Source: Desulfurellaceae bacterium (GTDB lineage: Bacteria; Desulfobacterota; Binatia; Bin18). Taken from it: 34,712 nucleotides of DNA. The translations under genes were made by a program, and so were the position numbers. Shown in pieces: positions 4,299 to 32,744 of this stretch. Numbering within the stretch: position 1 is the stretch's first letter; the number at the start of each line of letters is the position of its first letter. The notes beneath the pieces were generated by a model. That model did not search any database. It saw nothing but the letters and a program-made list of their open reading frames with translations, and had not been told where the DNA came from. Location: assembly GCA_021296095.1 (NCBI GenBank), contig JAGWBB010000019.1, positions 1 through 34,712 on the forward strand, given 5' to 3'.

Positions 4299-4338
4299 GG
4301 GTAACGCATAAATAACTGCCCTGTCATTGTCTCGTAAC
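4299..4338 (+). promoter_or_regulatory. Candidate Pho-box array (PhoB binding)
   Basis: Four 7-base units recur at exactly 11-bp spacing: GGGTAAC (4299), AAATAAC (4310), CTGTCAT (4321) and TCGTAAC (4332). The third is a perfect half-site of the E. coli Pho-box consensus CTGTCAT, and 11-bp phasing is the known geometry of PhoB binding. A possible -10, TACCCT, starts 10 bases after the last unit (4349). The array lies about 55 bp before the porin gene, and phoB and phoR are downstream in the same block. The other units match the consensus only partly. Confidence 0.55.
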
Positions 4339-4392
4339 ACTGCGTTCTTACCCTCTGGCCCAACTATGTCTGTAGGGAAGGAGAAGAACAGT

Positions 4393-5772: not shown

Positions 5773-5851
5773 GCACTCGTCGCCGGTCGCGGGTCGTGGA
5801 AGCGGCTCACGGCCATGTGTCATCACCATATCCCAACGGGAGGAAGTCGTT

Positions 5852-6826: not shown

Positions 6827-6883
6827 GCTACGAGACGGGCTGCGTCTCAAGCTGAGTGCGTTATGCTCGGGCGCAAGCCCACG

Positions 6884-6913
6884 GAGGAGGGGCCTGCCCC
6901 CCCTCCTCTTATT
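6884..6913 (+). terminator. Attenuator-like hairpin between pstS and pstC
   Basis: GAGGAGGGG (6884-6892) pairs perfectly with CCCCTCCTC (6900-6908) across a 7-base loop and is followed by TTATT. The U-tract is weak, so partial termination or 3'-end protection of pstS mRNA is more likely than full termination. This would give more binding protein than permease. Confidence 0.55.
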
Positions 6914-6969
6914 CCCCCTCCTCACGACGGCGCTAGCGCCCCGTCCGTCACTTCGGTATTGAGAGTAGC

Positions 6970-9303: not shown

Positions 9304-9326
9304 CCGACCGGACTGAGGAAGGACCT

Positions 9327-10955: not shown

Positions 10956-10972
10956 AAGAGAGGCACGCGAGC

Positions 10973-11827
10973 ATGGACAAAGATCTGTCAGCCTCGACCC
11001 CCGTCCTTGCTGTTCCGCAGCCGACCGGGAACGGCAATGGGACCGCTGCTCCGGTCGCTTCAACGGCTGCCGCGCCGGTTGAAATCCGTATCCGCAACCT
11101 GTGTCTGCACTACGGCAGCAGTCAGGCCCTGTACAACATCGACATGGATATTGAGCGGGGGAAGGTGACCGCCTATATCGGCCCGTCGGGGTGCGGCAAA
11201 TCGACCCTGATACGCTGTCTCAACCGGCTGAACGACCTCGTCGACGGGGTCCGGATCAGCGGCAGCATCACTATCGGCGGCACGGAAATCCTCGACACCG
11301 GCCTGGATGTGACCGAACTGCGCAAAAAAGTCGGCATGGTGTTCCAGAAACCCAACCCGTTTCCCAAAACGATTTACGAAAACATCGCCTACGGCCCACG
11401 CATTCTGGGCATCAGCCAGAAGTCGCGGCTGGACGAGATTGTGGAGAAAAGCCTCAAGGATGCTGCGCTGTGGGAAGAGGCCAAGGACCGCCTGCACGAC
11501 AACGCCCTGGACCTGTCGGGCGGTCAGCACCAGCGCTTGTGTATTGCCCGCACGATTGCGGTCGAGCCCGAGGTGGTGTTGATGGACGAACCCTGCTCGG
11601 CCCTGGACCCGATTGCCACCACAAAAATCGAAGAGCTGATCCACCAGCTCAAACGCAAGTACACGATTGTCATCGTCACCCATAATATGCAGCAGGCCGC
11701 GCGGGTGTCCGATTACACCGCGTTCATGTACCTGGGCAAACTGGTCGAGTTCGGCCCGACCGATAAACTGTTCACCACGCCCGAGAAAAAAGAGACCGAG
11801 GACTACATCACTGGCCGTTTCGGCTAG
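10973..11827 (+). CDS. pstB: Phosphate ABC transporter ATP-binding protein PstB
   Basis: A 284-aa ATPase with all ABC motifs: Walker [10 protein letters not shown] (residues 70-78), signature LSGGQHQR, Walker [12 protein letters not shown] and the switch His in [11 protein letters not shown]. It drives Pi import through PstCA and is part of the signalling complex with PhoU and PhoR. About 35 residues before the conserved core are Pro/Ala/Thr-rich and longer than in typical PstB. The ATG at 10973 has an upstream GAGAGG, so I keep this start. The gene begins 17 bp after the pstA stop. Confidence 0.95.
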
Positions 11828-11828
11828 A

Positions 11829-11878
11829 AAGGGGAACGACGATAACTATCTCATCAGGAAGAGATCATCGTTCCCCTT
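11829..11878 (+). other. Long inverted repeat between pstB and phoU
   Basis: Arms 11829-11843 and 11864-11878 are 15 bases each and complementary except for one position, with core GGGGAACGA/TCGTTCCCC and a 20-base loop. No T-run follows. It begins two bases after the pstB stop and ends 21 bases before the phoU start. An mRNA-stability or processing hairpin is the simplest reading. Confidence 0.6.
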
Positions 11879-11899
11879 GAACACGTACGCGAGGTGCCT

Positions 11900-12592
11900 A
11901 TGCCGTTACACACCGACCGACAGTACGAAGAAGAGTTGCAGGAGTTGCGGGCCAAGGTGTTGGAGATGGGCGGGCTGGTTGAAAAACAGATCGGCGATGC
12001 GATCACCTCGCTCACCCAGCGTGACTCCGAGTTGGCCACACAGACGATTGCCCGCGACCACATGGTCAACTACCTGGACGTGTCGATTGATGAGGCGTGT
12101 ACCCGCCTGCTGGCGCTCCACCAGCCTGCGGCGCGGGATTTACGCTTCATCATGACCAGCCTGAAGATCGGGACCGATCTGGAACGGATCGGCGATATCG
12201 CCCAAAACGTGTGCGAACGGGCGCTGGAACTCAACGAGGAGCCGCCCCTGCGGCCCTACGCCGACCTGCCGCGCATGGCCGAGTGGGCGCGCTCAATGCT
12301 GCGTGACAGTCTGGACGCCTTTGTCCGCGAGGACACCGGTCTGGCGCTGGACGTGTGTCAGCGTGACGATTTTATCGATGACCTGACGGCCGAGGTATTC
12401 GGCCGGATGTTGGGCCGGATGGCCGAAGAGCCCGAAACCGTGGTGCGTTCCACCCGAATCCTGTTTCTGGCGAAATATCTGGAACGCATCGCCGACCACG
12501 CCACCAACATCGCAGAAATGGTCATCTATATGGTGAAGGGCAAGAACATTCGGCATGTCTCGCCGGTCCCAAGCTCAGTCTCAGAGACCTAG
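11900..12592 (+). CDS. phoU: Phosphate signalling complex protein PhoU
   Basis: A 230-aa all-helical protein made of two similar three-helix halves. The metal-site motifs are visible in KIGTDLERIGDIAQNVCE in the first half and LERIADHATNIAEM in the second. PhoU links Pst transport to PhoR and keeps PhoR in its phosphatase state when Pi is plentiful. The ATG at 11900 sits 5 bases after GAGG; an in-frame GTG two codons earlier is less likely. Confidence 0.93.
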   Translation: MPLHTDRQYEEELQELRAKVLEMGGLVEKQIGDAITSLTQRDSELATQTIARDHMVNYLDVSIDEACTRLLALHQPAARDLRFIMTSLKIGTDLERIGDIAQNVCERALELNEEPPLRPYADLPRMAEWARSMLRDSLDAFVREDTGLALDVCQRDDFIDDLTAEVFGRMLGRMAEEPETVVRSTRILFLAKYLERIADHATNIAEMVIYMVKGKNIRHVSPVPSSVSET

Positions 12593-12632
12593 CGCCATGT
12601 CTGGAGGGGAGGAAGCTCTTGTGGAAGGCGCT

Positions 12633-13352
12633 ATGGCCGAGACCCCACGGAAAATCCTGATTGTTGAAGACGAAGAAGATATCCGCAGCCTGGTCCGCTA
12701 CAATCTGGAGGCCGAGGGGTTCGCGGTTGTCGATGCCAGTGACGGTGAGCGTGGCCTGCATCTGGCGGCCACACAGCGGCCGTCGTTGATTATCCTGGAT
12801 CTGATGATGCCGGGCCTGTCCGGCCTGGAAGTGTGTCGTCTGCTGCGCGCTCAGGAGGACACCGCCTCGGTGCCGATTCTGATTCTGACCGCCCGAGCCG
12901 CCGAGCTTGACAAGGTCCTGGGTTTGGAGATGGGCGCGGACGACTATGTCACCAAGCCGTTCAGCCCCCGTGAGCTGGTCGCCCGGGTCAAGGCGATCAT
13001 CCGCCGCGCGTACGGACCGGCCAATGAGCGACCCCACGAGTATTATGAAAAGGGCTGGTTGCGGATCGACTTCGATACCTACGAGGTCTACCGCGACGGC
13101 GAAGCGGTGGGCTTGGGTTTGCGCGAGTTCGATCTGTTGAAATTTTTTGTCCGCAACCCGCACCGCGTCTTTGGCCGCAGCCAGATTCTCGATCTGGTCT
13201 GGGGCCACAACGTGTACGTCGAGCCCCGCACGGTGGATGTCCACATCCGACGGCTGCGTCAACGCGTTGAGCGCGATGATACCAGACCGACGCTCATCCT
13301 GACCGTCCGTGGGGTCGGCTACAAGTTTAACCCCGATGCTTTGGAAGAATAG
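12633..13352 (+). CDS. phoB: Phosphate regulon response regulator PhoB
   Basis: A 239-aa OmpR/PhoB-type regulator. The receiver domain has the acidic pair ED near residues 12-13, the phospho-acceptor Asp56 (IILDLMMPG), a Thr in LTARA and a Lys in TKPFSP. The C-terminal winged helix contains VDVHIRRLRQRVE and the closing LTVRGVGYKF. It should bind Pho boxes such as the one proposed at 4299-4338. Start is uncertain: ATG 12633 has GGAAGG 4 bases upstream, while GTG 12621, four codons earlier, has the stronger GGAGGGGAGGA. Frames further upstream overlap phoU and are unlikely. Confidence 0.93.
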   Translation: MAETPRKILIVEDEEDIRSLVRYNLEAEGFAVVDASDGERGLHLAATQRPSLIILDLMMPGLSGLEVCRLLRAQEDTASVPILILTARAAELDKVLGLEMGADDYVTKPFSPRELVARVKAIIRRAYGPANERPHEYYEKGWLRIDFDTYEVYRDGEAVGLGLREFDLLKFFVRNPHRVFGRSQILDLVWGHNVYVEPRTVDVHIRRLRQRVERDDTRPTLILTVRGVGYKFNPDALEE

Positions 13353-14868
13353 GCTGGGCATCGCCATCGTTGGGTTTCCGAGTCTGGCCTGTGCAGGCCT
13401 GCTTGGCATGCTGGGCTTCTACGCCTTGCCCGACGCCGACCGCCCGGCCTGGTTGTGGTATGCGGCGTTCGGCCTGGGGCTGGGCGCGCCGTTCGGCGCT
13501 TGTGTCCTGAGCCGGAGTGTGGTGCGGCGCCTGGCCGATCTGCGGGCCTGTATCTCTCTCGCCTTGGAGCGCAGTCTGCCGCCCGGCCTGCCGATGCAAA
13601 GACCCGATGAACTCGGCCTCGTAGAAGACGGCCTGGGCCGGTTGCTGCACGCCCAGCACGAGCGGCTGCGGCGTTTACACGACGCCCGCCGGGAGCTCGA
13701 GGTGGTGCTCCAGAGCATGACCGAGGGGGTGATTGTCCTGGACGCGGACAGTCACATTCGCTTCTCCAACCGGGCCGCCCACAATTTCTTGGAGCTGTCT
13801 GAGGAGACGGACTTCCAGGCCAAGCCCCTGCTCGAATTCTCCCGCCATCCAGTGCTCCACGATCTGGTGCGGGCCGTGCTCGACAGCCCACCCGGGGCTG
13901 AGGCGCTGAGACAGGAAATCGAGCTTGAGGGCGAGCAGTCCCGCTCGGTCGCGGTCAGCGCGATCCAGGTGAACGTCTCGCCCCAGTCTCCGGTGTGGCA
14001 CGCGGAACACCCGGCTCTGAACGGACAGGCGGTCAGCGGGGTCATTCTGGTCCTGCACGACCTGACCGAACTCAGGCAGCTCGAAGCCATTCGGGCCGAC
14101 TTTGTGGCCAACGTCTCGCACGAGCTGCGCACGCCGCTGACCGCGATTAAGGGCTATGCCGAAACCCTGCTGAACGGCGCGCTCAACGACCCGCCCATGG
14201 TCACCCGTTTTCTGGCCATCATCGACCGTCACTCAGAGCGTCTCAGCCGTCTGATCGACGATCTGCTGACCCTGTCCGATCTTGAGTTGGGCAAGACCGA
14301 GCTGCGCCATGACCAGCTGGTGTTCGGCCAGCTGATTGACGAGGTATTCGAGCTGGTCAAGGACAAGGCGGCCAGCGGGCAGGTGCGGCTGAGTGCGGCG
14401 GTGCCGGAGTCGTTGCCGTCCCTGTCCGGCGACCCCGACCGGCTCCATCAGGTCTTGCTGAATCTGGTTGATAATGCCGTCAAATACACCCCCACGGGCG
14501 GACGGGTGGCGGTCTCCGCCCGTGTTGCGGCGGCTTCTTCGGTCCCGGATGGGAACGGGGACGGGACAGGCCAGGCCGACCACGGCTGGATGGAAGTCGC
14601 GGTTGCCGATACCGGCTGCGGCATCCCCGAGGCCGACATTCCACGCCTGACCCAGCGCTTTTACCGGGTCGATAAGGCGCGCTCGCGCGAACTCGGCGGA
14701 ACCGGGCTGGGTCTGGCGATTGTCAAACATATTGTGCAGGCCCACGGGGGGTTCCTGCATATCGAGAGCCAGCTCGACCGGGGGACGACGATGCGGGTCT
14801 TTTTACCGCTCGGCGCCCGGGCAGGGTGCGACGCGGTTCTTGAGGCCAGCCCGGACTCAGTGGGCTGA
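13336..14868 (+). CDS. phoR: Phosphate regulon sensor histidine kinase PhoR
   Basis: A 510-aa membrane kinase. Two N-terminal helices (about 6-27 and 35-58) are separated by a very short loop, so there is no real periplasmic sensor, as expected for PhoR. A PAS-like region follows (about 110-230). The HisKA domain has the phospho-accepting His262 (NVSHELRTPL). The ATPase domain has the N box LLNLVDNAVKYTP, G1 DTGCGIP and G2 GGTGLGLAIV. It phosphorylates PhoB when Pst and PhoU report low phosphate. The start overlaps the phoB end by 17 bp without a clear SD, which suggests coupled translation. The 3' end overlaps the opposite-strand gene by 12 bp. Confidence 0.92.
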   Translation: MLWKNRLGIAIVGFPSLACAGLLGMLGFYALPDADRPAWLWYAAFGLGLGAPFGACVLSRSVVRRLADLRACISLALERSLPPGLPMQRPDELGLVEDGLGRLLHAQHERLRRLHDARRELEVVLQSMTEGVIVLDADSHIRFSNRAAHNFLELSEETDFQAKPLLEFSRHPVLHDLVRAVLDSPPGAEALRQEIELEGEQSRSVAVSAIQVNVSPQSPVWHAEHPALNGQAVSGVILVLHDLTELRQLEAIRADFVANVSHELRTPLTAIKGYAETLLNGALNDPPMVTRFLAIIDRHSERLSRLIDDLLTLSDLELGKTELRHDQLVFGQLIDEVFELVKDKAASGQVRLSAAVPESLPSLSGDPDRLHQVLLNLVDNAVKYTPTGGRVAVSARVAAASSVPDGNGDGTGQADHGWMEVAVADTGCGIPEADIPRLTQRFYRVDKARSRELGGTGLGLAIVKHIVQAHGGFLHIESQLDRGTTMRVFLPLGARAGCDAVLEASPDSVG

Positions 14869-16968: not shown

Positions 16969-19900
16969 CTAGAGCCCACGCGGTCGGATATAGCGCTGAT
17001 AGACTTTGGGCAGCTCGGTCGGCAGCGAGGCCACGTCCTCGAGCACCAGATAGCGCGACGGTTCGCACATCTCGCGCAAATAGTCGTGGCCGGCCTTATC
17101 GACCGTCAGGCAGAAGGTCAGCACGCCAGCCTCTTCGGCTTCGCGCAGGGCGACCATGGTATCCCGAATGCCGTACGTTGTGGAGCGCCGGTCCGGCCCA
17201 TAATCCATGTCTTGGGGAAAGCCGTCGCTCAGCAGGATCAACAGCTTGACCCGACACGTCAGGTCTTTGAGTTTTTCCAAGGCGTGGCGCACGGCCGGTC
17301 CCATGCGGGTCGAGCGCTTGGGCTCAATGGCGCCGATGCGCCCCTTGACGGTCGGGGATAGCGCCTCAACGAACGACTTGACATGGTAGAACTCGATGTT
17401 GTCCTTACCCTGGCCCGAGAAACCGTAGATGGCGTAGGAATCGCCAATCTCTTCGAGCGCCTCGGCCATGAGCACCAGGGTTTCTTTGGTGACGTCGATA
17501 ATACGGCGCGGTTTGGGCTGGGACAGGCGTTTCGCAGCCGAGCGTGCATTCCGGTCGGCTTTGTTCCACAGCGGCTGCCAGTCTTCGGGCTCGTCGTCGC
17601 TGTAGTCCCGTTCCACCGCAACCAGCGGTTCATCCGTCGAAGCGCTCATGTCGAGCAGAAACAGGGCGGCCACATCGCGCTCGGTCTGACGCCGTTCGGT
17701 GTACAGCTTGGCCGAGGGCGCGAGCCGGGCGCGCATATCGACCACTGCGGTGACTGCGGCGTTGAGATCAAACTCGTGGCCGTCTTCAAGACCGCGCACC
17801 AGCCGGTACTGTTCCGGTCGGATGCGCTGGAACTCGTGTTTGATAGCCGGGGTGAGGGCCGTGTAGTCGTTCAGCGTCTGGGCAAAGAACTCACCGGCGT
17901 CGCCGCTCAGCACGATCTCCCGCAAACGACACCAGCGGCTCCGATAGTCGGCGATCTGATAGTCCCACTCGTCGTAGTAAAAGGTCAGGCCCTCCTCGCG
18001 CTGAGCGCGGCCGTGGACGGCCGGAAGAGCCGGGTCATTGCCGGCGGCGATGTGCTCCGGGTCGCCCTGGCCCGGCAACTTGCCGTTCAAATCGCTGACG
18101 TACAGCCCCTGGGGAATCAGCCTGTCCTGCTTGCCCTGGCGAATCTGGAGATCGACCCCGGCCTCAATCAGGGCTTTGAGTTCTTCGGCCGACAGGGGGC
18201 TGCCGCCCTGTTCCTCATCCCGTTCGTCCTCCAGCTGTAGCTCGGGTATATCGATCGGCTCCTGGACCGGCGGCGGACTCTCGTCATCGTCCATGTCGGG
18301 ATCGATCAGCGCATCGCCGCTCAGTTTGTCAAACAGAAGGCCGAAGTCCGAGGCGTCATCCGGGTTGAGGCGGGTGGTGGTCAGGGAGGACAGCAGGCGC
18401 AGGTAGAGTTCGGCCGCGCGGGTGGCCGAGTCATACACGTCTGCTGCGGCTGGGTGGTCGGACGGCAGGAGGTCGGACCACAGCGCGCTCAGCGAGACCA
18501 GGGCTTCGGGCAGCAGCGAGGGCAGGGACGCCGCGTCCAGCCACGCCACGTCTGCGCTCAGGCCCCGGTAGGCTGCCGTCAGGCGGGCGTGAACCCGCTG
18601 GGTTTCAATCAATATGAACAGGGCCTCGACAATGTCGGGGTGCACAAAGCAGCGAAAATACTCGGCCAGCCCGCCCACCGGAGCCGCGTCCTCGCGCATG
18701 ACGTGACGGACTGCGGGCGGCAGGTCGGGCCACAGCCGGCTGAGCGAGAATTCGTAGGTGCCGAACTCGCGACGGCCGGCCTGCTGAGCGGCAAAGGCGC
18801 GAAACAGCCGAAAATTCTCGTCATAGGTCTCAAACACCTCGACCCGGCCCGGCAGGGGCAGGTGGCTCGGGGCTTCTTCAAGTGCGGGCGGGTAGGAGAA
18901 GAACTCCTGGCGCCGAATACTGACCGGGCTGCCGGTCAGCATCTGGACATACTTACGCAGCAGTTCCTGGACCTCTTCGAGATCAATGCCGGGAGAAGCC
19001 TGGCGCAGAACCTGAAAGCTGGTGCGCGACTCCAGGCCAAAATAGGCCAGTCCAGCCTCGGGATTGTCGGCGGCGATGCGGGCACCTTTTGTCAGCCAGT
19101 CCTGGAGACCCGTGGGGCCGGCTTCTTCATGTGCCCGGGGCAGGGTCCGAATCAGCGGCGGAATACCGGCCGGAAAGGTGTCGGCGAGGCCGATTAGGCG
19201 GTCTTGCAGGCCAGGCTGCTCAGCCAGGCCGACAGCCTTGGCCACCGGTCTCAGCAACGGCAGCAGGCTGGCAACCGCCGGCGGGTCCGAGCGAATCACC
19301 GGGCTCAGGATGGACAGATACCCAGACCGCAGGCTCGGACTGAGACCCGACAGGACCGGTGGCAGACCGAAAAAAATCTCGGTGGCTGCGGTGGCAGACT
19401 GACTGGCCGCGTGCTGGGCGGTATGCAGAAAGGCCAGGCGCTGGGTCTGATCCAAGGCCTGAAAACCGTCCGGCAAATGCGTATAAAACGTCCACGGTCC
19501 GGAATCCTGGACCAGAGCGCCGAGTCTTGCCCAGGCTGCTATTTCCTCGGGACTCAGCACCGGCAGGGCGGCCGCCGCCGCCGAGAAATACGATACGGCC
19601 AGAAACTCCCCCTTCCAGCCCTTGCAGCCCAACAGCAGCCGGCCCTGCTCGGCCCAGGCGCGCAGGTGTGACCCGGTGGGCAGCTGGCCAAAGAGCGGAG
19701 CCGAGGCTTGAAAAAACTGCGCCCCAAGCCGGCGCGAGACCCGCAGCACCTCACGTCCGATGGCGATCCATTCTGCGGCCCGGTCCAGACCCAGCCGCCC
19801 TACCGATTGGGGCGGAATCGTAAAATAGGCGACCGCCCCGTCGCGTGAGGCCGGTTCCTGGCCGGCCAGGCCCTCGCCAAGGGCTACCCAGCGTCCGAAG

Positions 19901-20112
19901 CCCGTCGCGCCAAACGCCCGCCAGGCGGCCGGGGCTTGCCGACAGAAGGCTTGGGCCAGCGTCAGCGATAGCTCGGCCAGCCGGTCTCCGGTCGTCAGAA
20001 TCGTCTCGCGTGCTTCAGAGGGCAGGGCTTGGAGTTCGGCCAACAGCGCCTGGCCCGGCTCGTCTCCAAGCAGATGGCGGGTATCGAACCACAGGTGACG
20101 GAGGGAAGACAT
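16969..20112 (-). CDS. NorD/CbbO-like VWA domain protein
   Basis: A 1047-aa cytoplasmic-looking protein without a signal peptide. The first 600 or so residues are helical and Leu/Ala-rich, HEAT-like in appearance. An acidic stretch follows ([14 protein letters not shown], then [11 protein letters not shown]). The C-terminal VWA domain has a complete MIDAS: Asp821-x-Ser-x-Ser (DMSAS), Thr in [12 protein letters not shown] and Asp in [13 protein letters not shown]. NorD and CbbO proteins work with a MoxR-type AAA+ ATPase to activate metalloenzymes (NO reductase, Rubisco). No such ATPase or target is in this window, so the client is unknown. It starts 29 bp after the aminotransferase; its own SD is weak. 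Confidence 0.8.
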
Positions 20113-21241: not shown

Positions 21242-22162
21242 TCAAGGCTGGTCCGTGTCGTGTAAAATCCGGCCAGTTTTGCCGGCGCTTGCCCGGCTGT
21301 CGCGTCCGCTGGCCAGCCGGCTGAGAGACAGGTGGCCCAGGAAGTGTTGCTCGACCAGGCTCAGGCGGGCCGAGAAGGCGGGTGCGGCGAGTGCGGCCAG
21401 CTCACCGCCGACGGCCACCACATTGCCCCCGAATACGGGAAACACGGCCGTGTGCGGCCAGGCCGTCTCAAAGGTCGCGCGGGCGGCCGCATAGCCGGGA
21501 ATGCCCGAGTGCAGGTTGGTGGCCAGCACGCCGCCCGGAGCCAGACAGGCGCGACATTCGGTATAAAACTCGTGGGTACTCAGGTGGCGCGGCACCCCCT
21601 CGACGCGGTAGGCGTCGAGCAGGATCAGGTCGTAAGACAGCCGGCCGGCAGCCCGACGCAGATAGTCCCGGCCGTCCTGGACGATGATCCGCTGGCGTTC
21701 GTCCTGGACAATGCCAAAGAAGCGTTCCGCCAGCGCAACAACAAGCGGGTCAAGCTCGACGGTATGCAGCGTCACCCGCTCCAGGTAGTGGTGGAGGACC
21801 ATTTGCAGGCGTCCCCCGCCCAGCCCGATGAGCAGAATACGCCGGGGCTGGGGCTGCCAGATCAGGGCCAGGAGCATGGCCTGGGTATAGGCCGAGGGCA
21901 GGACGAGGGGGTCATCGGGGTCAAGCCGTGATTCGGTTTCTTCGATCTGGCTGTCGGGATGGCGGTAGCACAGCAGGAGCTGCTGTGTCGTGCGACGCAC
22001 GACGATGTGGTTATAGGCCGAGACCTGCTCATGCACGATGCCGGGACGGGCGGCGCGGCCAGCGGCCAGACGGCGGCTGATGGCGGCCAGGTTTTGCTCT
22101 TGCCAGGCGGAGAGGGTCGGTGGTGTGGGGCGTGTCGAGCGTGTCTTTCGTATCCATCTCAT
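21242..22162 (-). CDS. Spermidine synthase-like protein
   Basis: A 306-aa protein with a Rossmann methyltransferase-type fold of the spermidine synthase family. The nucleotide-binding loop ILLIGLGGGRLQMVLH (near residue 109), the acidic strand-2 end VELDP, VQDGRDYL and the LLDAY motif near the expected catalytic Asp are visible. Family members transfer aminopropyl groups to amines; many of these shorter paralogs have no tested substrate, so polyamine synthesis is only likely. It is the last gene of the ExbB/ExbD cluster, 55 bp after the second exbD. Its Gly-rich core is intact. Confidence 0.75.
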   Translation of the reverse strand: MRWIRKTRSTRPTPPTLSAWQEQNLAAISRRLAAGRAARPGIVHEQVSAYNHIVVRRTTQQLLLCYRHPDSQIEETESRLDPDDPLVLPSAYTQAMLLALIWQPQPRRILLIGLGGGRLQMVLHHYLERVTLHTVELDPLVVALAERFFGIVQDERQRIIVQDGRDYLRRAAGRLSYDLILLDAYRVEGVPRHLSTHEFYTECRACLAPGGVLATNLHSGIPGYAAARATFETAWPHTAVFPVFGGNVVAVGGELAALAAPAFSARLSLVEQHFLGHLSLSRLASGRDSRASAGKTGRILHDTDQP

Positions 22163-22217
22163 TCAGGATGTCCGACCCGGGCGGTGGTTTCCCCCTCGGC
22201 CAGCCCTTGGGCCTGTG

Positions 22218-22634
22218 TCATTTGACGGTGGCGATGGCCAGGCGGTGCAGACCCTCGGTCCGGGCCAGATCCATCACGCCGACCACCCGGCCGTGCTGGA
22301 CTTCCTGGTCAGCGCGGACCACCAGGGTGACCTCGCTGCCCTTTTCCCGCTCGGCCTGGAACACGTTCTGGAGCTGCTCAAGGCTGGTCTCCTGTTCGTT
22401 CAGAAACAGGCCGCCGCCCTTGTCCAGACTCACCGTGAGGCGTGTCCGTTCCACCTGAGAGGCGGCTGACGACGCCTTGGGCAGGCTGACATCGACCCGG
22501 CCCTCTCTGGTCTGATTAAACGTGGCCAGAAAGCTGAACGTAATGAAGAAGAAGATGAACATGTTCATGATGATGTCGGTCAGCGCCACCGAGTCGAGGT
22601 TCGGGCTGGGCTGTGGGTGCTTGCTAAACTGCAT
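22218..22634 (-). CDS. ExbD/TolR family biopolymer transport protein (second copy)
   Basis: A 138-aa protein with a short cytoplasmic N-terminus, one membrane helix (about 20-42) and a periplasmic domain. The helix begins with the key proton-pathway Asp in VALTDIIMNMF, and unusually runs on as a Phe-rich stretch (FIFFFITFSF). ATG 22634 is chosen because it gives the usual N-terminal length; the gene overlaps the preceding exbB by 11 bp. It would be the rotor-side partner of the 22624-23286 ExbB protein. It differs clearly from the other ExbD in the cluster, so the two motors are not a recent duplication. Confidence 0.85.
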   Translation of the reverse strand: MQFSKHPQPSPNLDSVALTDIIMNMFIFFFITFSFLATFNQTREGRVDVSLPKASSAASQVERTRLTVSLDKGGGLFLNEQETSLEQLQNVFQAEREKGSEVTLVVRADQEVQHGRVVGVMDLARTEGLHRLAIATVK

Positions 22635-23286
22635 CGCTGAGGGGCTCCCGGGGCTGAGCTTGGGTGAGCATATCAATCAGGGTCTCGGTGTGCTCTTCGG
22701 TCAGCCGGGTCAGCCGTTTGACCCGGGCGGTGAGGTGATTATAGATCAGATAGTACGGAATCGTGACACTCAGACCGGCGGCGGTGGTGATCATGGCTTC
22801 GTAGATACCACCGGCCAGGATATTGATCGTGATCTGGTCGCCCATCATTTCCCAGCTCATGAAGGCGCGGATCAGACCGATGATGGTGCCCAGAAATCCA
22901 AGCATCGGGGCCACCCCAATCACCGCCGCCAGCACGCCCAGATAGGACTCCAGGGCAGCGACCACATCCCCACCTAAACGTTCCAGACGGCGGGTCAGCT
23001 CGCTGTGGCCGCGGTCCCGATACACAATGGCAGCCTCAAACAGCCGGCTGAGCGGGCTGGTGTATTCACGGCAGACGCCCAGGGCGACCGAGATATTGCC
23101 CTCAGCCAGCTGGGGTTCGATACGCTGGTTGAGCGTGCTGAGGTGGGTACGGAACCGCCACAGCGACCAGAACTTGGCCAGCACAATGGCAAAAGCAACG
23201 ACGGACAGGACGGCGATGATGAACAGCACCACGCCGCCCTTGGCCAGAAAGAGCCAGATTCCCTGATCTGTTGGTGAGACGGTGAT
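22624..23286 (-). CDS. ExbB/TolQ/MotA family proton channel (second copy)
   Basis: Three membrane helices are visible: one near the N-terminus (LFLAKGGVVLFIIAVLSVVA), one in GVLAAVIGVAPMLGFLGTIIGLI and one in EAMITTAAGLSVTIPYYLI, with a cytoplasmic helical domain after the first. With ExbD it forms a proton-driven motor. The start is unusual. The first ATG/GTG/TTG in frame is GTG 23232, which cuts into the first helix and removes the amphipathic segment (TDQGIWLFLAKGG) that family members have. The only sensible upstream candidate is ATC at 23286, seven bases after AAAGGA; this is the start I give, with 23232 as the conservative alternative. The frame closes at 23299-23301. Confidence 0.7.
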   Translation of the reverse strand: MTVSPTDQGIWLFLAKGGVVLFIIAVLSVVAFAIVLAKFWSLWRFRTHLSTLNQRIEPQLAEGNISVALGVCREYTSPLSRLFEAAIVYRDRGHSELTRRLERLGGDVVAALESYLGVLAAVIGVAPMLGFLGTIIGLIRAFMSWEMMGDQITINILAGGIYEAMITTAAGLSVTIPYYLIYNHLTARVKRLTRLTEEHTETLIDMLTQAQPREPLSDAV

Positions 23287-23429
23287 CGTGATATCCTTTC
23301 AGGCTCTTCTTGTTATCACGCTCACCTTTTTTGGCCTAGCCCGGTGTGGGTCGCCGAGCCAGCCCGGACGGTGGGGAAAGAGGAACGAGACGCTCGTCTT
23401 GACTCAGCCGATCCTCCTCGTCCGGTGTG

Positions 23430-25889
23430 TCAGACGCCGCAGTTCTTGTTCACAAAATCCTGGATCTGTTTTTTGAGTTGCTGGTCTCCCAGCCGGTTCA
23501 GCATGGTGCGGGTGCCCCGGGCGGTCCGACAGCCGGCCTGGGCGTTGCCCAGCGAAACGTTCAGCACGGCGACCTCGTACGAGCCGCGGAACCAGATCGG
23601 GTCCCCGGCCTGCGAGTCTCGGAGCATCTCCTCCCAGTAGGCCAGCGCCTGTTCCTTGTTCCCGTTGACCTCGGCGATACGGGCCAAGCCGGCCAATGAG
23701 ACCAGCGAATACGGCCCGTCCTGGAGCTGGGTGTACAGGGCGGCCGCCTGGCCGTAGTCTCTGACATCCAGATACAGCTGGGCCAGCTCGTATTTGAACT
23801 TGTCCTGGGACTCGTCTGCGGCAAAGTCCTGACGCGTAATCTTGTCGCTGTACAGGCGGGCCAGGGTGCGTTTGGCGGCCTGGAGGTTCTCCCTGTCGTT
23901 CTGTTTCTTCAGGGTCCGAATATCCCGCACCAGGACCTGATCGAGCGCTGTGAGCAACTCAAGACGTTTGTCGGTGTCATAGGTGGCAAAGATGGCCGCC
24001 ACATTCTTTTCCAGCTCCTCAAAGCGGCCGGCCTTCTCCAGCGTCACCAGACGGACGCGGGCCACGGTTTCAAAGGCGTCTTTATGGGCCGGGTAGTGTT
24101 GCTCGAAGTCGTGCAGCAGGTCGGCGATCTGGGTGGCGTTGGCGTCGGTGTCCTCGCTGAGCAGGACCGCGTGCATGAACTTGACCCGACCGCGATAATT
24201 CCTGAGATTCTCGCGTTTTTTGCCCTTGGGGTTCTGCTTTTCAAACGCGGCGCTGCTCTGCTCAAAGGCGACCAGGCCGTCTCTGATGCCTTGTTTGAGG
24301 TCGTCGGGGCTGATGCCCAGGTCTTTATCGGGCTCTTCTTCCCACTGTTCGTAGATCGAGAAATAGCTTTGCAGGGTGGCAAAATCGGCCCGGAAGCGAA
24401 ACTCGGTACTGCCGCGGACGCGCCGATACGAGTTCACGGCTTCGAGATAGTTTTCCTGGCCGTGCTGATACTCACCGAGTCGAAAATGCGCCTCGTGGAC
24501 GGCTTTTGAGCGGTTCTTGGGATCGCGTTTGATCAGGTCTCTGGCCGCGTTCACATACAGGCGGCCGTTGGTCTGGTTCTGCGACTGGGCGAACAGGGCC
24601 TCGGCAGCCTTGAAACGCAGGTAGGCGGCGTTGACCGCATTTTTGGACGATCCGCCGTTGAGGTAGCTGTCCAGGGTGGTGATTGCCTGGTGCAGCCTGC
24701 CGGTTCTGAGCAGCGCGTCGCCAAGGTAGTAGCGGGCGTCCTGTTTATGGCGCCGGGCGCGTGAATCGTCCGACTCCAGCACCGTCCGTAGGACGGGGAT
24801 GGCCTTGGCGTACTGGCCCTTGCGAATAAAAGCCGCCGCGTTGTGCCACGGCATATAGGGGTCGAGGGCCAGCTTTTCGTCTTCGTTCAGGACCTGGGCC
24901 AGCAGGGTGTCGGCCTTGGCTCTCCACGTATCGTCGGCGTTTTCTGACTCTTTGACCCCCAACACCAGGCCGATGGCCCGTTCCCGGGTCTTGCGGCGCT
25001 GCGTGCCGCGTTCCTGCTGGCTGCGCTCAAACAGACCGCTGGCTTCGGCCAGCTGTTGTTCGAGCAGGTCTTCGGGTGAGGGGCCGCTGCGTTTGCCGCG
25101 CTTGGCCAGACGCCGGGTCTCTGCCAGCGCGTTGGTGACCTTGGCGCGCATGCTGGGGCTGGTCGCCTTGTCTTTCAGCAGCGCCTCAAAGTCGTTGATC
25201 GCCCAGTCATACTCGCCCAGTTCGCGCTCGCTCAGGGCGCGGCCGAACAGGGTCTCGCGTTTGATGCTCGACGCCGGGCCGGAGGCAAACTCGGAGAAGC
25301 CGTTAATCGCGTCTTTGAGCAGCTGGGCCTGGCGCTCGCCCTCATACACGAACGAGCCGACATACTTGAGCCAGTTGAGAAAATACAGCGCACGGGCCGC
25401 CACATCCTGGGCGTCTCTCCACCGCGCCTCTTCGTACAGGGCCTCCAGGTCGCCGTCGACGGCCATGATGTCCTGCATCCAGCGTTCCATGACATCGGTG
25501 TTGGCCTTGTAGATGGCTTGCAGGGGCGCGCTCAGGTCGGTGTAAACCTGCCGCACGCTCGCGCGCTTGGTCTTGACCGCAGTGGCCAGATCCGAGGCGG
25601 CCACAAACTCCATGGCCAGCGGACCGATAACCCCGATGGCGTTGAGCTGGCCAGCCTTGCCGCCGGTCCTCAACTGGTTGGCCCGGTTTTTGGCCTGGGC
25701 GGCGCGGGGCGCCAAGTCCGATATCGTTGCCGCGTGGCCCGGGCCTGGGGCGGCCAGGCCGGACACCAGGCAACACGCGCCGATGAGGAGGGCGGCATAC
25801 GGAATGCGGAACCGAAAGGGACAGACAAGACGGAACGCGGAGCGCGTTGTGAGCCCACGGTTCATCGTGCCGACTTCTGCCTTCATCAT
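23430..25889 (-). CDS. Large exported tetratricopeptide-repeat protein
   Basis: An 819-aa protein with a signal peptide (hydrophobic core AALLIGACCLVSGLAA, cleavage near GHAA). The rest is almost entirely helical, with TPR-like repeats such as RHKQDARYYLGDALLRTGRL near residue 375 and KYELAQLYLDVRDYGQAAAL near 690. It should lie in the periplasm or on the outer membrane as a protein-binding scaffold. ATG 25889 has GAGGAG upstream. It sits between two ExbB/ExbD pairs and next to the VWA protein, which suggests it is the passive partner pulled or gated by one of the motors. No catalytic motif is seen. TonB2-type systems also include TPR proteins, but I see no close match. Confidence 0.75.
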   Translation of the reverse strand: MMKAEVGTMNRGLTTRSAFRLVCPFRFRIPYAALLIGACCLVSGLAAPGPGHAATISDLAPRAAQAKNRANQLRTGGKAGQLNAIGVIGPLAMEFVAASDLATAVKTKRASVRQVYTDLSAPLQAIYKANTDVMERWMQDIMAVDGDLEALYEEARWRDAQDVAARALYFLNWLKYVGSFVYEGERQAQLLKDAINGFSEFASGPASSIKRETLFGRALSERELGEYDWAINDFEALLKDKATSPSMRAKVTNALAETRRLAKRGKRSGPSPEDLLEQQLAEASGLFERSQQERGTQRRKTRERAIGLVLGVKESENADDTWRAKADTLLAQVLNEDEKLALDPYMPWHNAAAFIRKGQYAKAIPVLRTVLESDDSRARRHKQDARYYLGDALLRTGRLHQAITTLDSYLNGGSSKNAVNAAYLRFKAAEALFAQSQNQTNGRLYVNAARDLIKRDPKNRSKAVHEAHFRLGEYQHGQENYLEAVNSYRRVRGSTEFRFRADFATLQSYFSIYEQWEEEPDKDLGISPDDLKQGIRDGLVAFEQSSAAFEKQNPKGKKRENLRNYRGRVKFMHAVLLSEDTDANATQIADLLHDFEQHYPAHKDAFETVARVRLVTLEKAGRFEELEKNVAAIFATYDTDKRLELLTALDQVLVRDIRTLKKQNDRENLQAAKRTLARLYSDKITRQDFAADESQDKFKYELAQLYLDVRDYGQAAALYTQLQDGPYSLVSLAGLARIAEVNGNKEQALAYWEEMLRDSQAGDPIWFRGSYEVAVLNVSLGNAQAGCRTARGTRTMLNRLGDQQLKKQIQDFVNKNCGV

Positions 25890-25958
25890 TGGGGGTGCTC
25901 CTCGTGCTCGGGGAAAGGGAGGCGTGATCTCGTTGCATTCTCTATTACGGATGCCTTT

Positions 25959-27191
25959 TTAGCTCAGGTCTCGCAGGAAGCGTTCCATCTCCGTTTCCCA
26001 GCGCGTGCCAAAGGTCAGGACGATGATCTGCTTGGTCAGCTGTTTCTCGTCGGTCAAGGGGATGAACTCGCCGCCGCCGGCGGTGGCGATCGAGGCCATG
26101 GTGTCCCGGAACTCCTGGTAGAAGCCGGGCAGCGGAGATGGGCTAAAGGCGATATTGGTCAGATGCGCAGTCTGTTTCCACAGGGAGCGCTCAAAGTCTT
26201 CGTGCATCTTTTCGGCCAAGTCCAGGGCGCTCACATAGCCGCCCCCGGCCCGGAAGCTCTGAGCCAGATTCAGGATATTGCTGACCGACTCGGGGTGTGG
26301 AGACGAGCCCGACACGATGACCAGAATCCGGCGCGATTTCTTGCGCCAGCTGAGGTCGTGGATCGCCACATCAACGCCCTCGTACACCGCCTCGGGCCAG
26401 TCACCCCCACCGCCGGCTTCGAGGTTGGCCAGAAAACCCTGTAGCTTCGAGGTCGAGAAGCTGAAATCGACCCAGCGGGTGACGTAATCCTCACCCCGGT
26501 CCCGGTAGGCCACAATGCCGACCCGGGTCGTATCGACCATGGTTTGGAGGGACTCGATCATGTTGCTGAGCCGCTCGCGAACCGAGTCGATCACGAACTG
26601 CATGCTGTCGGTGGCGTCCACGACCAGGGCGACATCAATGCCGACCCGCCGCAGCCCGCCGACCCGGTCGCCGAAGTCGCCGCCGGCCACCCCGTCGAGC
26701 GAGCCGCTCAGATTGGTGATCTGGGTGGTGATACCCTTGAGATCGTCAGAAGTCCGGCCGACCTGAATGGTGACCGGGCTGAAGGAGTTACTCAGAATCG
26801 GCATGGCGGTCGGCTTGATGGCGGCCACCCGGCCGGCCAGCGGTGGTGGGCCGGACGACCATTTCTTGACTTGTCTGTGCGGTAGCATGTCCATCGACAA
26901 GGCGCCGGGCAGGTCTCTGAGGGACGGCTCGCCCTCCCAGTCGTCCGGGTCTTTCTGGTCCTCGGCCTGGGCGGCCGGGTCCTGGGCGAACGGCAGGGCG
27001 GTCACTTTGATGAGGTCCTGACCCTTCTGGATCACGGTCACCGCCGTGGTGGCAAACACCGACAGCAGCAGCAGGTGGGCGACGGTGGAGACGGCAAACC
27101 AGCGCGCGTTGGTGCCGAACCGGCCTCGGGACAACCACAGGTCTTCCTGGGGGTCGGTCACGCCGGTGCGTTCTTTTTCGGCGGAAGCCAT
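25959..27191 (-). CDS. Membrane-anchored VWA protein with TonB-like N-terminus
   Basis: A 410-aa protein. A cytoplasmic head (1-30) precedes one membrane helix (about 31-53) with Ser35-x3-His39 (VSTVAHLLLL). This is the same spacing as the Ser16/His20 pair that TonB uses to engage ExbB/ExbD. A Pro- and Asp-rich linker follows, then a VWA domain (about 185-390). The MIDAS start is Asp192-Ala-Thr-Asp-Ser196, followed by VAYRDRGEDYVTRW and GGGGDWPEAVYEG. The third MIDAS acid appears replaced in VSGSSPHPES, where relatives have GDAPPH. The start has an AAGGAGG SD. The gene directly follows exbD, where tonB would be expected. No classical TonB C-terminal domain is present. Confidence 0.8.
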   Translation of the reverse strand: MASAEKERTGVTDPQEDLWLSRGRFGTNARWFAVSTVAHLLLLSVFATTAVTVIQKGQDLIKVTALPFAQDPAAQAEDQKDPDDWEGEPSLRDLPGALSMDMLPHRQVKKWSSGPPPLAGRVAAIKPTAMPILSNSFSPVTIQVGRTSDDLKGITTQITNLSGSLDGVAGGDFGDRVGGLRRVGIDVALVVDATDSMQFVIDSVRERLSNMIESLQTMVDTTRVGIVAYRDRGEDYVTRWVDFSFSTSKLQGFLANLEAGGGGDWPEAVYEGVDVAIHDLSWRKKSRRILVIVSGSSPHPESVSNILNLAQSFRAGGGYVSALDLAEKMHEDFERSLWKQTAHLTNIAFSPSPLPGFYQEFRDTMASIATAGGGEFIPLTDEKQLTKQIIVLTFGTRWETEMERFLRDLS

Positions 27192-27236
27192 ACCTAGTCC
27201 TCCTTCTTTATCTCGCGTCTGTCAGAGCCGAAGGGC

Positions 27237-27656
27237 TTAGCCCGCCCCCTGCTGGGCGGCGATGGCAATCTGGGTTGCCCCGGCCCGCTGGGCCGCCGAC
27301 AGAATCTTGACCGCCTCGCCCAGGATCACCGATTGGTCGCCCTCCAGGACGACCGGGACATCCTGCATCGTTTCGATGATCGGCCGCAGATACAGTTCAA
27401 GCTCAGCCAGGGCGACCGGCTGATTGTTGACGAAAATTTCTTTCTGGGGGGTGACCGTGACGATGATCTGGCGCGGTTCGGACTCGGTTTCCTGGACCCG
27501 CGGCAGATCGATCGTGGCGCCCGACTGGACCATCGCCACGCTGGTCACCATGAAGATGATCAGCAGGACGAGAAAGATATCGGTCAGCGGGGTGATGTTG
27601 ATCTCGGACATGACCTCGTCACGCCCGCCCCTCTTTTTGGGACCACTCATGGCCAT
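27237..27656 (-). CDS. ExbD/TolR family biopolymer transport protein (first copy)
   Basis: A 139-aa protein with a cytoplasmic N-terminus (SGPKKRGGRDEVMSEINITP), one membrane helix with the conserved Asp at its start (PLTDIFLVLLIIFMV) and a periplasmic domain. The sequence is close to canonical ExbD. ATG 27656 follows AAGGAG, and a second ATG is two codons further. It lies 25 bp after exbB and 45 bp before the VWA gene, so the three are almost certainly one operon. It uses the proton gradient with ExbB to energise a TonB-like partner. Confidence 0.9.
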   Translation of the reverse strand: MAMSGPKKRGGRDEVMSEINITPLTDIFLVLLIIFMVTSVAMVQSGATIDLPRVQETESEPRQIIVTVTPQKEIFVNNQPVALAELELYLRPIIETMQDVPVVLEGDQSVILGEAVKILSAAQRAGATQIAIAAQQGAG

Positions 27657-27681
27657 GAGATTATCTCCTTTTTCCTGAGTC

Positions 27682-28329
27682 CTAAGCGGACTGGGCCGCT
27701 TCTCTCCTGCCGATGCGGATGGCGTCGATGATGCGGTCAGAACCAATCGTCATGGCCGTATCAATCCGTTCCAGCTTGGTATTGAAATAATTGTAGAAGA
27801 TAACGGCGATGATAGCGACCGCCAGACCGAGCGCCGTGGCCACCAATGCCTCGGAAATACCGCCGGCCACGACGGTAAACCCGCCGCTGCCCTCGACCGC
27901 CATGCTTTGGAAAGATTTGATAATCCCGACCACCGTCCCCAGCAGGCCGATGAACGGCGCGCTGACGCCGGTAGTGGCCAGAATCCAGATCGCGCCCTTG
28001 AGCCCTTCGGCCTCTTCCAGGCGACGCTCTTCGGCCAGGCTTGACAGCTGCTCGGTGGATTCGTCCTGCTGGCGGGCGATGATCTCGCGGAACACCCGTC
28101 CGGCGGGCAATTTGTTCTCGGCTTGGCTGGTCTCCAGGGCGGTGTTGAAATCACCCTGCTGCAAGGGACTCACCAGGTCTCTGGCCAGATGCAGGGTTTT
28201 TGTCATGATCCCGCCCAGGTTCCACAGCCGTTCCAGAATGATCGTGATACACACCACTGACATGATGATAAGCGGGTAGCTGACATACCACCCCTGGTGA
28301 ATCATATCCATGACGCTTAAACCTTCCAC
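27682..28329 (-). CDS. ExbB/TolQ family proton channel (first copy)
   Basis: A 215-aa protein with three membrane helices (about 17-33, 118-138 and 152-178) in the ExbB layout. Recognisable stretches are YPLIIMSVVCITIILERLW, IGLLGTVVGIIKSF and EALVATALGLAVAIIAVIFY. It forms the pentameric stator/rotor shell around ExbD. The start is GTG after AGGAGG; ATG 28311 is an internal alternative. It is the first gene of the cluster, about 20 bp downstream of a terminator-like hairpin. Confidence 0.9.
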   Translation of the reverse strand: MEGLSVMDMIHQGWYVSYPLIIMSVVCITIILERLWNLGGIMTKTLHLARDLVSPLQQGDFNTALETSQAENKLPAGRVFREIIARQQDESTEQLSSLAEERRLEEAEGLKGAIWILATTGVSAPFIGLLGTVVGIIKSFQSMAVEGSGGFTVVAGGISEALVATALGLAVAIIAVIFYNYFNTKLERIDTAMTIGSDRIIDAIRIGRREAAQSA

Positions 28330-30061: not shown

Positions 30062-32503
30062 TCAGACACCCGTGAAGTGATAGGTCACCTCCAGGCCGAA
30101 GACCCGCCCTTTCATCAGCGGTGAGAAGGTGCCGGCGGGCAGCTGGATGTCGCTCCCGAACCGCGTGGAGTCCAGCAGGTTCTTGCCGTACAGGCCGACC
30201 ACCCACTGACCATCGTTGATGTGGATATCCAGCCCGGCCTGCAACATTTTCTGCTGGCGGTTGAACCCGGTGTTGTCGTCGTTGGCATACTCTTTGTCGC
30301 GGTAGGCGTAGGTGACGCGCGAGGCGAGCCGATAGCGGCTGCCGACCCGCAGCGTGTGCAGCAGACCCAGGCTGTAGGTCCAGCGCGCGGCCCGGGGCGG
30401 TTTGAGATCCTCGTCCTTTGCGTCCAGCCTGCCGTCGCGGTTGAGGTCGAACTTGACCGCGGTATAGTCCGGCTCGACGTAGCCGAGCGAGCCGAGCGCG
30501 ATCAAGCTGGGGGTGAGGGCAAACATCCCCTCCACTTCCAGGCCCCAGAATTCGGCGTCGGCCGTGTTCCGAATTACCTGCACGATGTTCTGCACGGTTT
30601 GGATGGTCGGCCTGCCGTCCACAAAAGTGATGACGGGCAGACCGGTGTCCGGGTCCGGGACGGGCAGGTTCTCGCCGAAACTCAGCTCCCGTTGCAGATC
30701 GTCGACGAAGTTATAGAAGAACGCCGCGTTGAGGCGGCCGCGGCTGCCGAAGGTTTTCTTGAAGCCGATCTCGAAACTGTCGATCCGTTCTTCGTCGAAC
30801 GCCTCGGCGTCAAGATCGCGGGCAGCCTTCAGGCCGAGCCGCTCGAGCAGGGCGATCTGGGCGTCCGGCAGACCCCTGGTCACATCGTAAAATGAGTCGC
30901 GCAGATTATAGCCGCCGGACCGGAAGCCGCGTGCCCAGTGGGTGTACAGCAGTGTCTCGTCATCAAACCGGTAGCTCAGCCCGATTTTGGGCGACAGATT
31001 ATTCCAGCTCGCCTCGTCTTTGAAATGGCTGGGGCAGTCGGGGCCGTCCACGATATGACACCGGGTGCCTCCGTTGCGGAGGATATTCGTAATCTCGGCG
31101 GCTTTCTCTTCATGGGTGTAGCGCAGTCCGGCGGTCAGCGTCAGCCGCTCGGTCAGATCGTAGTCTCCGGCCATGAACAGCCCAAAGGTCTCAACCGCAT
31201 AGATGCCGCCACCGTTGAATTCCGGCATGCCGCCAATATTGTCGCCGAAAAACCGCTGCTCATGATAGTCGAGATCGTTCTGAAAATAGTAGAAGCCGGT
31301 GGTCAGGAATAGGCGGTCGAGAAACACGCCGCTGTAGCGCAGCTCGTTGCTGAACTGCTCGGCGGCCTGGGCGCCGCCGCCGTGGAAGAAGGTGAGCGGC
31401 GTCGAGTCGGCATCGCTCAGCGCATCTCCCGCCCCCTCGCGCCAGCCGAAGATATTGGTCAGCGTCCCCTTGCCGAAGGGAATGTCCCAGTCGGCCCGGG
31501 CGTTGAAGAAGTTGATATAGGTCTTCAGGAAGCCGTCTTCGTTGACGGCGAAGTCGTGGCTGTCGCGGTCGAAGTTGAAAAGCGGATGGGACAGGCCGGA
31601 CCCGTTGGTATGGTTCTGGCCCGCCGGGCCGTCGCCGTCGAGGTCCTGATATTCGTAGCGCAGCGTCAACCGCAGGGTGTCCAGGGGCTGCCAGGTGACG
31701 ACTGGCCGCAGCATCAGCGTATCCTGGGCGCCGAACGCCTTGCCGTCGTACTCATTCTCAAACCAGCCCTGGTCCTGGTTGGAATAGACTGTGAAGCGGG
31801 CGCGCAAAGTCTTGGTCAGCGGGGCGTTGAGCGTGCCCGAGACGTACATGTTGGGCGCCTTGCCGCCGCCTTCGACCGTGCTGCGAACCGTGGCCTCATA
31901 GCGGTCGGTGGGGAGCTTGGTGTTGACCAGGATGGCCCCGCCTATCACATTGCGACCGAACAGAACGCCTTGCGGGCCGCGCAAGACCTCGATGCTCTCC
32001 AGGTCGAAGGCGTCGTACAGCACCCCCGCGTTCGTCCCCAGGTAGATGCCGTCAACGAAAACGCCGACCGTCGGATCGATGGACGGAATCGAGCTGTTGA
32101 TGCCCAGGCCGCGCATCGAGAAATTCGCGATACCCCGCCCCACACCAGCGTCTTCGAGAGCCACATTCGGCATGCTGATCGACAGGTCACTCAGGTCGCG
32201 CAGCTTGAGGGCGTCAATCTGTTCGGCGTCGAAGGCGGTGATCGACAGCGGTACGTCCTGACTCGGCTGAGATCGTTTCTGAGCGGTCACGACCACATCC
32301 TCCAACAGGAAGGTGGTGTCGGAGGCGGCCGCTTCAGCTTCCGATCCGGTGTCTGCCGGTCTGGGAGTCTGGGCCTTGGCCGGCAATGCAACAGCCCCCA
32401 GCACCAGGACGACGCTTAGCGCAAGCAGACCCAGGACGGCCGGCGCCGACATTGCACACAGGTCCGCCTGTTGGTTTGCAGCCGTCTTGGCCACAGGATG
32501 CAT
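30062..32503 (-). CDS. TonB-dependent outer-membrane receptor
   Basis: An 813-aa protein. A signal peptide (hydrophobic core VLGLLALSVVLVLG, cleavage near PAKAQ) is followed by a TonB-box-like LEDVVVTAQKR. The plug domain contains FSMRGLGINSS, VGVFVDGIYLG and ESIEVLRGPQGVLFGRNVIG, and a 22-strand-type barrel follows. Such receptors import chelated iron, cobalamin, sugars or other bulky ligands; the ligand here is unknown. The barrel ends in VTYHFTGV, so the usual final aromatic residue is three residues in. Start choice is uncertain: ATG 32503 and ATG 32452 both leave a usable signal peptide, and neither has a strong SD. No tonB gene is seen nearby. Confidence 0.88.
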   Translation of the reverse strand: MHPVAKTAANQQADLCAMSAPAVLGLLALSVVLVLGAVALPAKAQTPRPADTGSEAEAAASDTTFLLEDVVVTAQKRSQPSQDVPLSITAFDAEQIDALKLRDLSDLSISMPNVALEDAGVGRGIANFSMRGLGINSSIPSIDPTVGVFVDGIYLGTNAGVLYDAFDLESIEVLRGPQGVLFGRNVIGGAILVNTKLPTDRYEATVRSTVEGGGKAPNMYVSGTLNAPLTKTLRARFTVYSNQDQGWFENEYDGKAFGAQDTLMLRPVVTWQPLDTLRLTLRYEYQDLDGDGPAGQNHTNGSGLSHPLFNFDRDSHDFAVNEDGFLKTYINFFNARADWDIPFGKGTLTNIFGWREGAGDALSDADSTPLTFFHGGGAQAAEQFSNELRYSGVFLDRLFLTTGFYYFQNDLDYHEQRFFGDNIGGMPEFNGGGIYAVETFGLFMAGDYDLTERLTLTAGLRYTHEEKAAEITNILRNGGTRCHIVDGPDCPSHFKDEASWNNLSPKIGLSYRFDDETLLYTHWARGFRSGGYNLRDSFYDVTRGLPDAQIALLERLGLKAARDLDAEAFDEERIDSFEIGFKKTFGSRGRLNAAFFYNFVDDLQRELSFGENLPVPDPDTGLPVITFVDGRPTIQTVQNIVQVIRNTADAEFWGLEVEGMFALTPSLIALGSLGYVEPDYTAVKFDLNRDGRLDAKDEDLKPPRAARWTYSLGLLHTLRVGSRYRLASRVTYAYRDKEYANDDNTGFNRQQKMLQAGLDIHINDGQWVVGLYGKNLLDSTRFGSDIQLPAGTFSPLMKGRVFGLEVTYHFTGV

Positions 32504-32744
32504 GGTTCTTACTGTCGTATTCGTGGGTGTCCACACGCCCATAGGGCTATAGCGTGCGCTGCGCAGCCGGACAAGGGGGAAATGGATCGGGCGCGGCTCC
32601 TTCTGTTCCGCAGGGTGACGTAACCGACCGAGAGCATCTGCCAATTCGATTGATCACCGGGAGCAGCATGTTGCAAAGTCGTGTTGCTCTGCCACCTGCT
32701 GGGCTGTATCGTTCCTCTGAAACCCGTCTGATGGAGACACTCCA

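Follow-up and report, generated by a model that had tools for sequence, protein, structure and literature searches.

A four-gene core, encoding the proteins we call ExbB1, ExbD1, VWA and TPR, quite probably specifies a trans-envelope force machine of the vWA-transducer class in a Desulfurellaceae bacterium of the Binatia. The genes lie on the minus strand of contig JAGWBB010000019.1 (34,712 nucleotides, referred to here as the window), numbered C19 in a genome of 185 contigs and 4.32 Mb (assembly GCA_021296095.1; G000). They open a seven-gene run that the initial annotation placed here in the order ExbB1-ExbD1-VWA-TPR-ExbB2-ExbD2-SpeE-like, and both the order and, through Pfam, each of the domains are confirmed. 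Most likely the machine uses protons to pull on the envelope via a TonB- or TolA-like rod that ends in a vWA domain. The direct evidence, drawn from sequence and structural models, comprises gene content and its conservation, a Ser-x3-His membrane helix and a predicted three-part architecture in VWA, the proton-path residues of the motor, and the predicted export signal of TPR. From these we infer the complex, the contact between VWA and TPR, and the force.

In the proposed mechanism an ExbB1 pentamer and an ExbD1 dimer would assemble, within the inner membrane, into a proton-driven motor of 5:2 stoichiometry. VWA would dock on ExbB1 through its Ser-x3-His helix in the fashion of TonB and TolA, ExbD1 would grip a D-box-like strand of VWA just outside the membrane, and a flexible linker would let the vWA head pull on a periplasmic partner. 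The likeliest first partner is the secreted TPR solenoid, which may act as a scaffold between the vWA head and the cell wall or outer membrane. The idea of a proton-driven envelope machine was already present in the initial annotation and is now backed by motor genes that retain the proton-path Thr, Thr and Asp residues and by the docking helix of VWA.

The VWA protein as probable force transducer

The VWA gene (25959..27191, minus strand; Pfam VWA) encodes a protein in which a helix (residues 25-60), a disordered linker (61-171) and a vWA domain (172-410) follow one another. Its N-terminus (...NARWFAVSTVAHLLLLSVFATT...) holds a single membrane helix bearing Ser-x3-His at S35 and H39. Among 36 homologues from the class Binatia the His is present in all and the Ser in 35, while the surrounding residues vary, and TolA of the same genome bears the pattern too (VSVILHAG). 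In cryo-electron microscopy structures the Ser and His of the corresponding SHLS motif form the docking hub on the first transmembrane helix (TM1) of ExbB/TolQ (PMC12905483). Because the transmembrane helix holds this near-invariant Ser-x3-His and the core genes are conserved in relatives, VWA likely takes the place of TonB or TolA as force transducer, and we hold with good confidence that it is driven by ExbB1-ExbD1.

The model and the fold comparisons are consistent with this assignment. In the AlphaFold2 (AF2) model of VWA, helix 25-60 has a predicted local distance difference test score (pLDDT) of about 90 in its transmembrane part, the linker falls almost entirely below 50, in keeping with the approximately 100-residue linker of the transducer class, and a confidently predicted domain begins at about residue 180. 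The C-terminal fold matches vWA structures (VIA-align Z 19.3, root-mean-square deviation 2.6, 171 residues), and a search of PDB sequences with the VWA profile gave the collagen VI vWA domain as its sole match. A strand-like segment, IKVTALP, stands directly beyond the transmembrane helix. With the hydrophobic/polar pattern of the TonB D-box defined as in PMC10907165, the full pattern occurs 16-36 residues past the His in 9 of 19 aligned members with the window's gene order, compared with a mean of 1.0 and a maximum of 6 in 2000 shuffles. The loop D192-x-T194-x-S196, resembling a metal ion-dependent adhesion site (MIDAS), is nearly invariant among VWA homologues, and metal-dependent binding is therefore possible.

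The TPR protein as candidate partner

The TPR protein (23430..25889, minus strand; Pfam TPR families) is predicted to consist of a Sec signal peptide followed by a helical solenoid (residues 53-819); at 819 amino acids it does not merit the earlier description as giant. Its AF2 model is one long helical solenoid (mean pLDDT 85.6), and a fold search yielded no specific relative, returning only generic solenoids with low TM-scores, among them a Campylobacter periplasmic flagellar scaffold (9hmf). In homologues whose N-terminus is complete, a signal peptide is present and other transmembrane helices are absent; hydrophobic stretches elsewhere in two entries (L055, L058) seem to reflect open reading frames (ORFs) with a wrongly assigned start. 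TPR was considered as a transducer in its own right, and the signal peptide together with the absence of another membrane helix speaks against this role and for that of a partner. The earlier proposal that VWA and TPR jointly replace the known force transducers is supported for VWA, by virtue of its Ser-x3-His helix, and not for TPR. That TPR is the direct partner of VWA we put at about even chances.

Conservation of the core in relatives

VWA homologues are present in 70 of 98 related genomes and in 41 of 54 genera. A survey of 40 wider loci from 37 genomes found VWA and a motor together in 38, and VWA, motor and TPR in 34. The order ExbB-ExbD-VWA-TPR recurs at 20 loci besides the window, and others in the class read VWA-ExbB-ExbD(-ExbD)-TPR or VWA-TPR-ExbB-ExbD, giving at least three orders overall. 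Since 34 of the 40 loci hold the set in several orders, linkage of the core genes is kept even though their order is not. Flanking genes vary between families (neighbors were clustered on reduced ORFs, and the resulting cluster 'c2' consists largely of antisense ORFs over ExbB). The core content is also found in other classes of the phylum (L162, and L161, which ends at a contig edge) and in Planctomycetota (L102). As a separate observation, two genomes each harbor a pair of vWA transducer systems whose motors come from different clades (L043/L044 in G071; L040/L060 in G054).

The wider run is conserved far less. PadR, phosphatase and SpeE neighbors are limited to the window's family. A search for the seven-gene order, as the initial annotation had suggested, recovers the four core genes as neighbors across relatives and ExbB2-ExbD2 and SpeE in one family only. 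The seven genes are accordingly not one conserved set; just ExbB1-ExbD1-VWA-TPR is widely kept. SpeE was rejected as a functional part of the machine on the ground that it adjoins TPR in one family only, and the SpeE-like protein is probably outside it.

Two motors from separate clades

Motor 1 consists of ExbB1 (27682..28329, minus strand, GTG start; PF01618, E 3.6e-31), a TolQ/ExbB-type pentamer subunit, and ExbD1 (27237..27656, minus strand; PF02472, E 5.3e-26), a TolR/ExbD-type axle. The corresponding subunits of motor 2 are ExbB2 (22624..23262, minus strand; PF01618, E 5.2e-26) and ExbD2 (22218..22634, minus strand; PF02472, E 2.9e-24). Thr residues matching E. coli Thr148 and Thr181 are retained in both ExbBs, as is the transmembrane Asp in both ExbDs (PLTDIFLVLL in ExbD1, ALTDIIMNMF in ExbD2). 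The two pairs do differ markedly, as had been noted initially: the ExbBs share 28% identity and belong to different clades. The clade that contains ExbB1 is large and made up mainly of vWA-associated motors; that of ExbB2 is specific to one family and stands next to the Ton-type ExbB from contig C104. The exact placement is tentative given several long branches. Their separation in the tree led us to reject ExbB2 as a duplicate of ExbB1.

At 60% identity or above, ExbB2 has relatives in no family but the window's, where 13 of the 16 genomes carry one. Within that family, a molybdopterin oxidoreductase gene stands between TPR and ExbB2 in one genus (g2), and SpeE directly follows TPR in two cases (G006 and L077), in the first of which no ExbB2 was found anywhere in the genome. 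Because it is absent or separated in some members, the ExbB2-ExbD2 pair is an accessory that was either gained or lost, and a Ton-type motor specific to this lineage. It is doubtful that motor 2 acts on the same vWA transducer as motor 1, and equally doubtful that two distinct 5:2 motors, ExbB1-ExbD1 and the Ton-derived ExbB2-ExbD2, share one vWA transducer and TPR scaffold; if true, such a two-motor trans-envelope machine would be without described counterpart.

Weighing the force-transducer model against alternatives

Several observations count against a vWA-tipped machine of the TonB/TolA kind. The Leu (+7) and Ser (+11) of SHLS are Phe46 and Ala50 in the window's VWA, and across the 36 homologues these last two positions are Leu in 23 and Ser or Thr in 21; SHLS is carried by 'many' vWA force transducers and is hence an auxiliary rather than a defining feature (PMC12204202). 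The Pro of the third transmembrane helix (TM3), thought to relay the TonB/TolA signal, is Ile in ExbB1 and Ile, Val or Leu in all sequences of its clade, whereas it is retained in TolQ, Ton ExbBs, ExbB2 and the 'type B' vWA motors. In family f9, moreover, the locus reads ExbB-ExbD-ExbD-VWA and no TPR gene was detected. The Pro loss is not specific to vWA systems, since in two relatives of family f2 that lack VWA an ExbB1-clade motor lies beside a TonB_C transducer (L156, 6230-7963; L157, 6351-8076). That these motors adjoin a TonB_C protein instead of VWA also suggests that transducers have been exchanged on one motor lineage.

The remaining ExbBD systems of the genome bear on two of the alternatives. 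Genome-wide there are seven MotA_ExbB, six ExbD and three TonB_C genes, the last solely on contigs C1, C50 and C104. C1 holds tolQ-tolR-tolA-tolB-pal-cpoB, C50 a TonB2-like TtpC-ExbB-ExbD-TonB-TPR set, and C104 an ExbB-ExbD-ExbD-TonB-receptor set. (One of the two ExbDs of the C104 locus, L154, 5552-5953, has Asn in place of the proton-binding Asp, PLINIVLLLL.) Since those three contigs carry the organism's Tol-Pal and Ton loci, the cluster is separate from them and is the fourth ExbBD-powered system in the genome. It was correctly said to lack a TonB, TolA, TolB, Pal or OmpA partner; all of these are encoded elsewhere in the genome.

A Tol-Pal variant or duplicate that tethers the outer membrane, with VWA standing in for TolA and TPR for CpoB, would accord with the better scores that ExbB1 and ExbD1 reach against TolQ/TolR models in comparison with those for ExbB/ExbD; the Ser-x3-His helix is common to TolA and VWA, and CpoB is likewise a periplasmic TPR protein. 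Yet both motor proteins score far under the equivalog cut-offs, the cluster is without TolB and Pal, and the Tol-Pal set on C1 stands apart, and we regard this reading as improbable. Still less probable is a variant Ton uptake system in which both ExbBD pairs energize the TonB-dependent receptor encoded just upstream (30062-32644) and VWA is an accessory. The closeness of that receptor and the grouping of ExbB2 with the genome's Ton-type ExbB speak for it, but the cluster has no TonB_C, the two TonB proteins have their own motors on C50 and C104, and no homologue of the receptor was detected near the cluster in relatives, where an enoyl-CoA hydratase gene is found.

The two other alternatives start from the vWA domain. 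A gliding or surface-adhesion motor that moves vWA adhesin-like heads, an idea put forward in PMC12204202, is slightly better placed than the Tol-Pal variant and still unlikely. vWA folds are often adhesive, the Myxococcus gliding adhesin CglB has one (cited in PMC12204202), and the MIDAS-type D-x-T-x-S loop is kept; against this, VWA is predicted to be tethered to the inner membrane with no obvious route to the surface, and the genome has no match to GltJ (NF033761), the single Glt/Agl protein searched. Membrane vWA proteins and TPR proteins also act together with a MoxR ATPase in Bat/MoxR-type systems, and such a reading has in its favor that BatB (3ibs, Z 19.2) ranks among the best structural matches for the vWA domain and that TPR matches BatC weakly. 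However, no MoxR or DUF58 domain appears among the cluster genes and scanned neighbors and no BatA domain among the cluster genes scanned, and at 38 of 40 loci VWA is accompanied by ExbB/ExbD genes instead, which leaves this the most improbable of the four.

Gene boundaries and other features of the window

The start of ExbD1 is most likely the ATG at 27656, preceded by a ribosome-binding site AAGGAG and separated from ExbB1 by 25 bp. An 11-bp overlap mentioned initially is located at ExbB2/ExbD2, spanning exactly 22624-22634. There is no ATG, GTG or TTG where ExbB2 homologues start (23232-23277, minus strand); because a genome of the same genus (L123) likewise has none, the gene probably begins at a rare start codon, for which the ATC following GAAAGGA is an example, and a sequencing error is the less likely explanation. 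The SpeE-like protein (21242..22162, minus strand) has a spermine/spermidine synthase domain (PF01564, E 2.8e-10) and scores under every NCBIfam speE equivalog cut-off. VWA is 97% identical to its counterpart in WTHE01000575.1, and the nearest named records are metagenome-assembled genomes of Candidatus Binatota/Binatia.

Elsewhere in the window, a 1047-amino-acid protein (16969-20112, minus strand) has a C-terminal vWA domain, with a weak Pfam VWA match, no NCBIfam match and no adjoining MoxR gene. A phosphate-related run (2495-14868, plus strand) encodes a PhoX phosphatase, a Porin_O_P porin, two permease-type proteins, an ABC ATPase and a sensor histidine kinase; one of the permease-type proteins (777 amino acids) has weak beta-propeller matches.

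Significance and comparison with known systems

Uptake through TonB and envelope tethering by TolA are the only tasks of ExbBD-type force transducers that are understood well. A further, widespread class whose head is different and whose TPR partner is exported would imply an undescribed proton-driven envelope process. Conservation across the Binatia, reshuffled gene orders and motor exchange mark motor, VWA and TPR as belonging together. H39, the D-box-like strand and the MIDAS loop offer targets for point mutation, and the family that added a second Ton-type motor is a natural experiment on motor recruitment.

The initial annotation knew of no described system with this composition and named a match to a characterized Tol, TonB2 or gliding system as grounds for refutation. 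TolB, Pal and a TonB C-terminal domain are lacking from the cluster, as set out below, but it does match a described class: vWA force transducers with SHLS helices, encoded near tolQ/tolR and a TPR gene and of unknown function, were reported by Williams-Jones et al. 2025 (PMC12204202). As for Zorya defence, the only matches are weak ones of ZorA2 to ExbB2 (E 9.5e-5), and no other Zorya component is found among the seven proteins.

The cluster shares with TonB-ExbBD the 5:2 motor genes, the Ser-x3-His helix and a D-box-like strand, but lacks the TonB C-terminal domain and a conserved TonB-dependent receptor partner. Tol-Pal (TolQRA-TolB-Pal-CpoB) likewise has a motor, a tethered transducer and a periplasmic TPR protein; here a vWA head replaces the TolA domain, TolB and Pal are missing from the cluster, and Tol-Pal has its own locus on C1. 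TonB2 systems with TtpC and TPR also combine two ExbB-like proteins and a TPR protein at one locus, whereas neither ExbB here has a TtpC-type N-terminal extension, there are two ExbDs and no TonB, and the TonB2-like locus is on C50. TPH-vWA proteins, which form a second class in PMC12204202, are membrane-tethered vWA proteins with motor links as well, but their pore helix bears an Asp like that of ExbD (SLADILTTALGC) and lacks Ser-x3-His. Myxococcota loci L104-L111, whose vWA proteins likewise show the ExbD-like Asp helix (SLADILTTALGCVLLLF) without Ser-x3-His, correspond to that second class.

Closest are the vWA force transducers themselves, which share the Ser-x3-His transmembrane helix, the disordered linker of about 100 residues, the vWA head, and adjacent tolQ-/tolR-like and TPR genes. 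The Binatota are not among the phyla listed in PMC12204202. Four points go unmentioned in the literature searched and to that extent are new here, though they may have been noted elsewhere: the system occurs throughout the class Binatia, its genes stand in several orders, one family has a second motor of Ton type, and motor 1 differs at the TM3 Pro. In that paper's examples from the PVC (Planctomycetes-Verrucomicrobia-Chlamydiae) group the vWA gene lies downstream of TPR, of one tolQ and of paired tolR genes, with a single motor, whereas here the core order is ExbB-ExbD-VWA-TPR, motor 1 is without the TM3 Pro, and one family has a second ExbB/ExbD pair.

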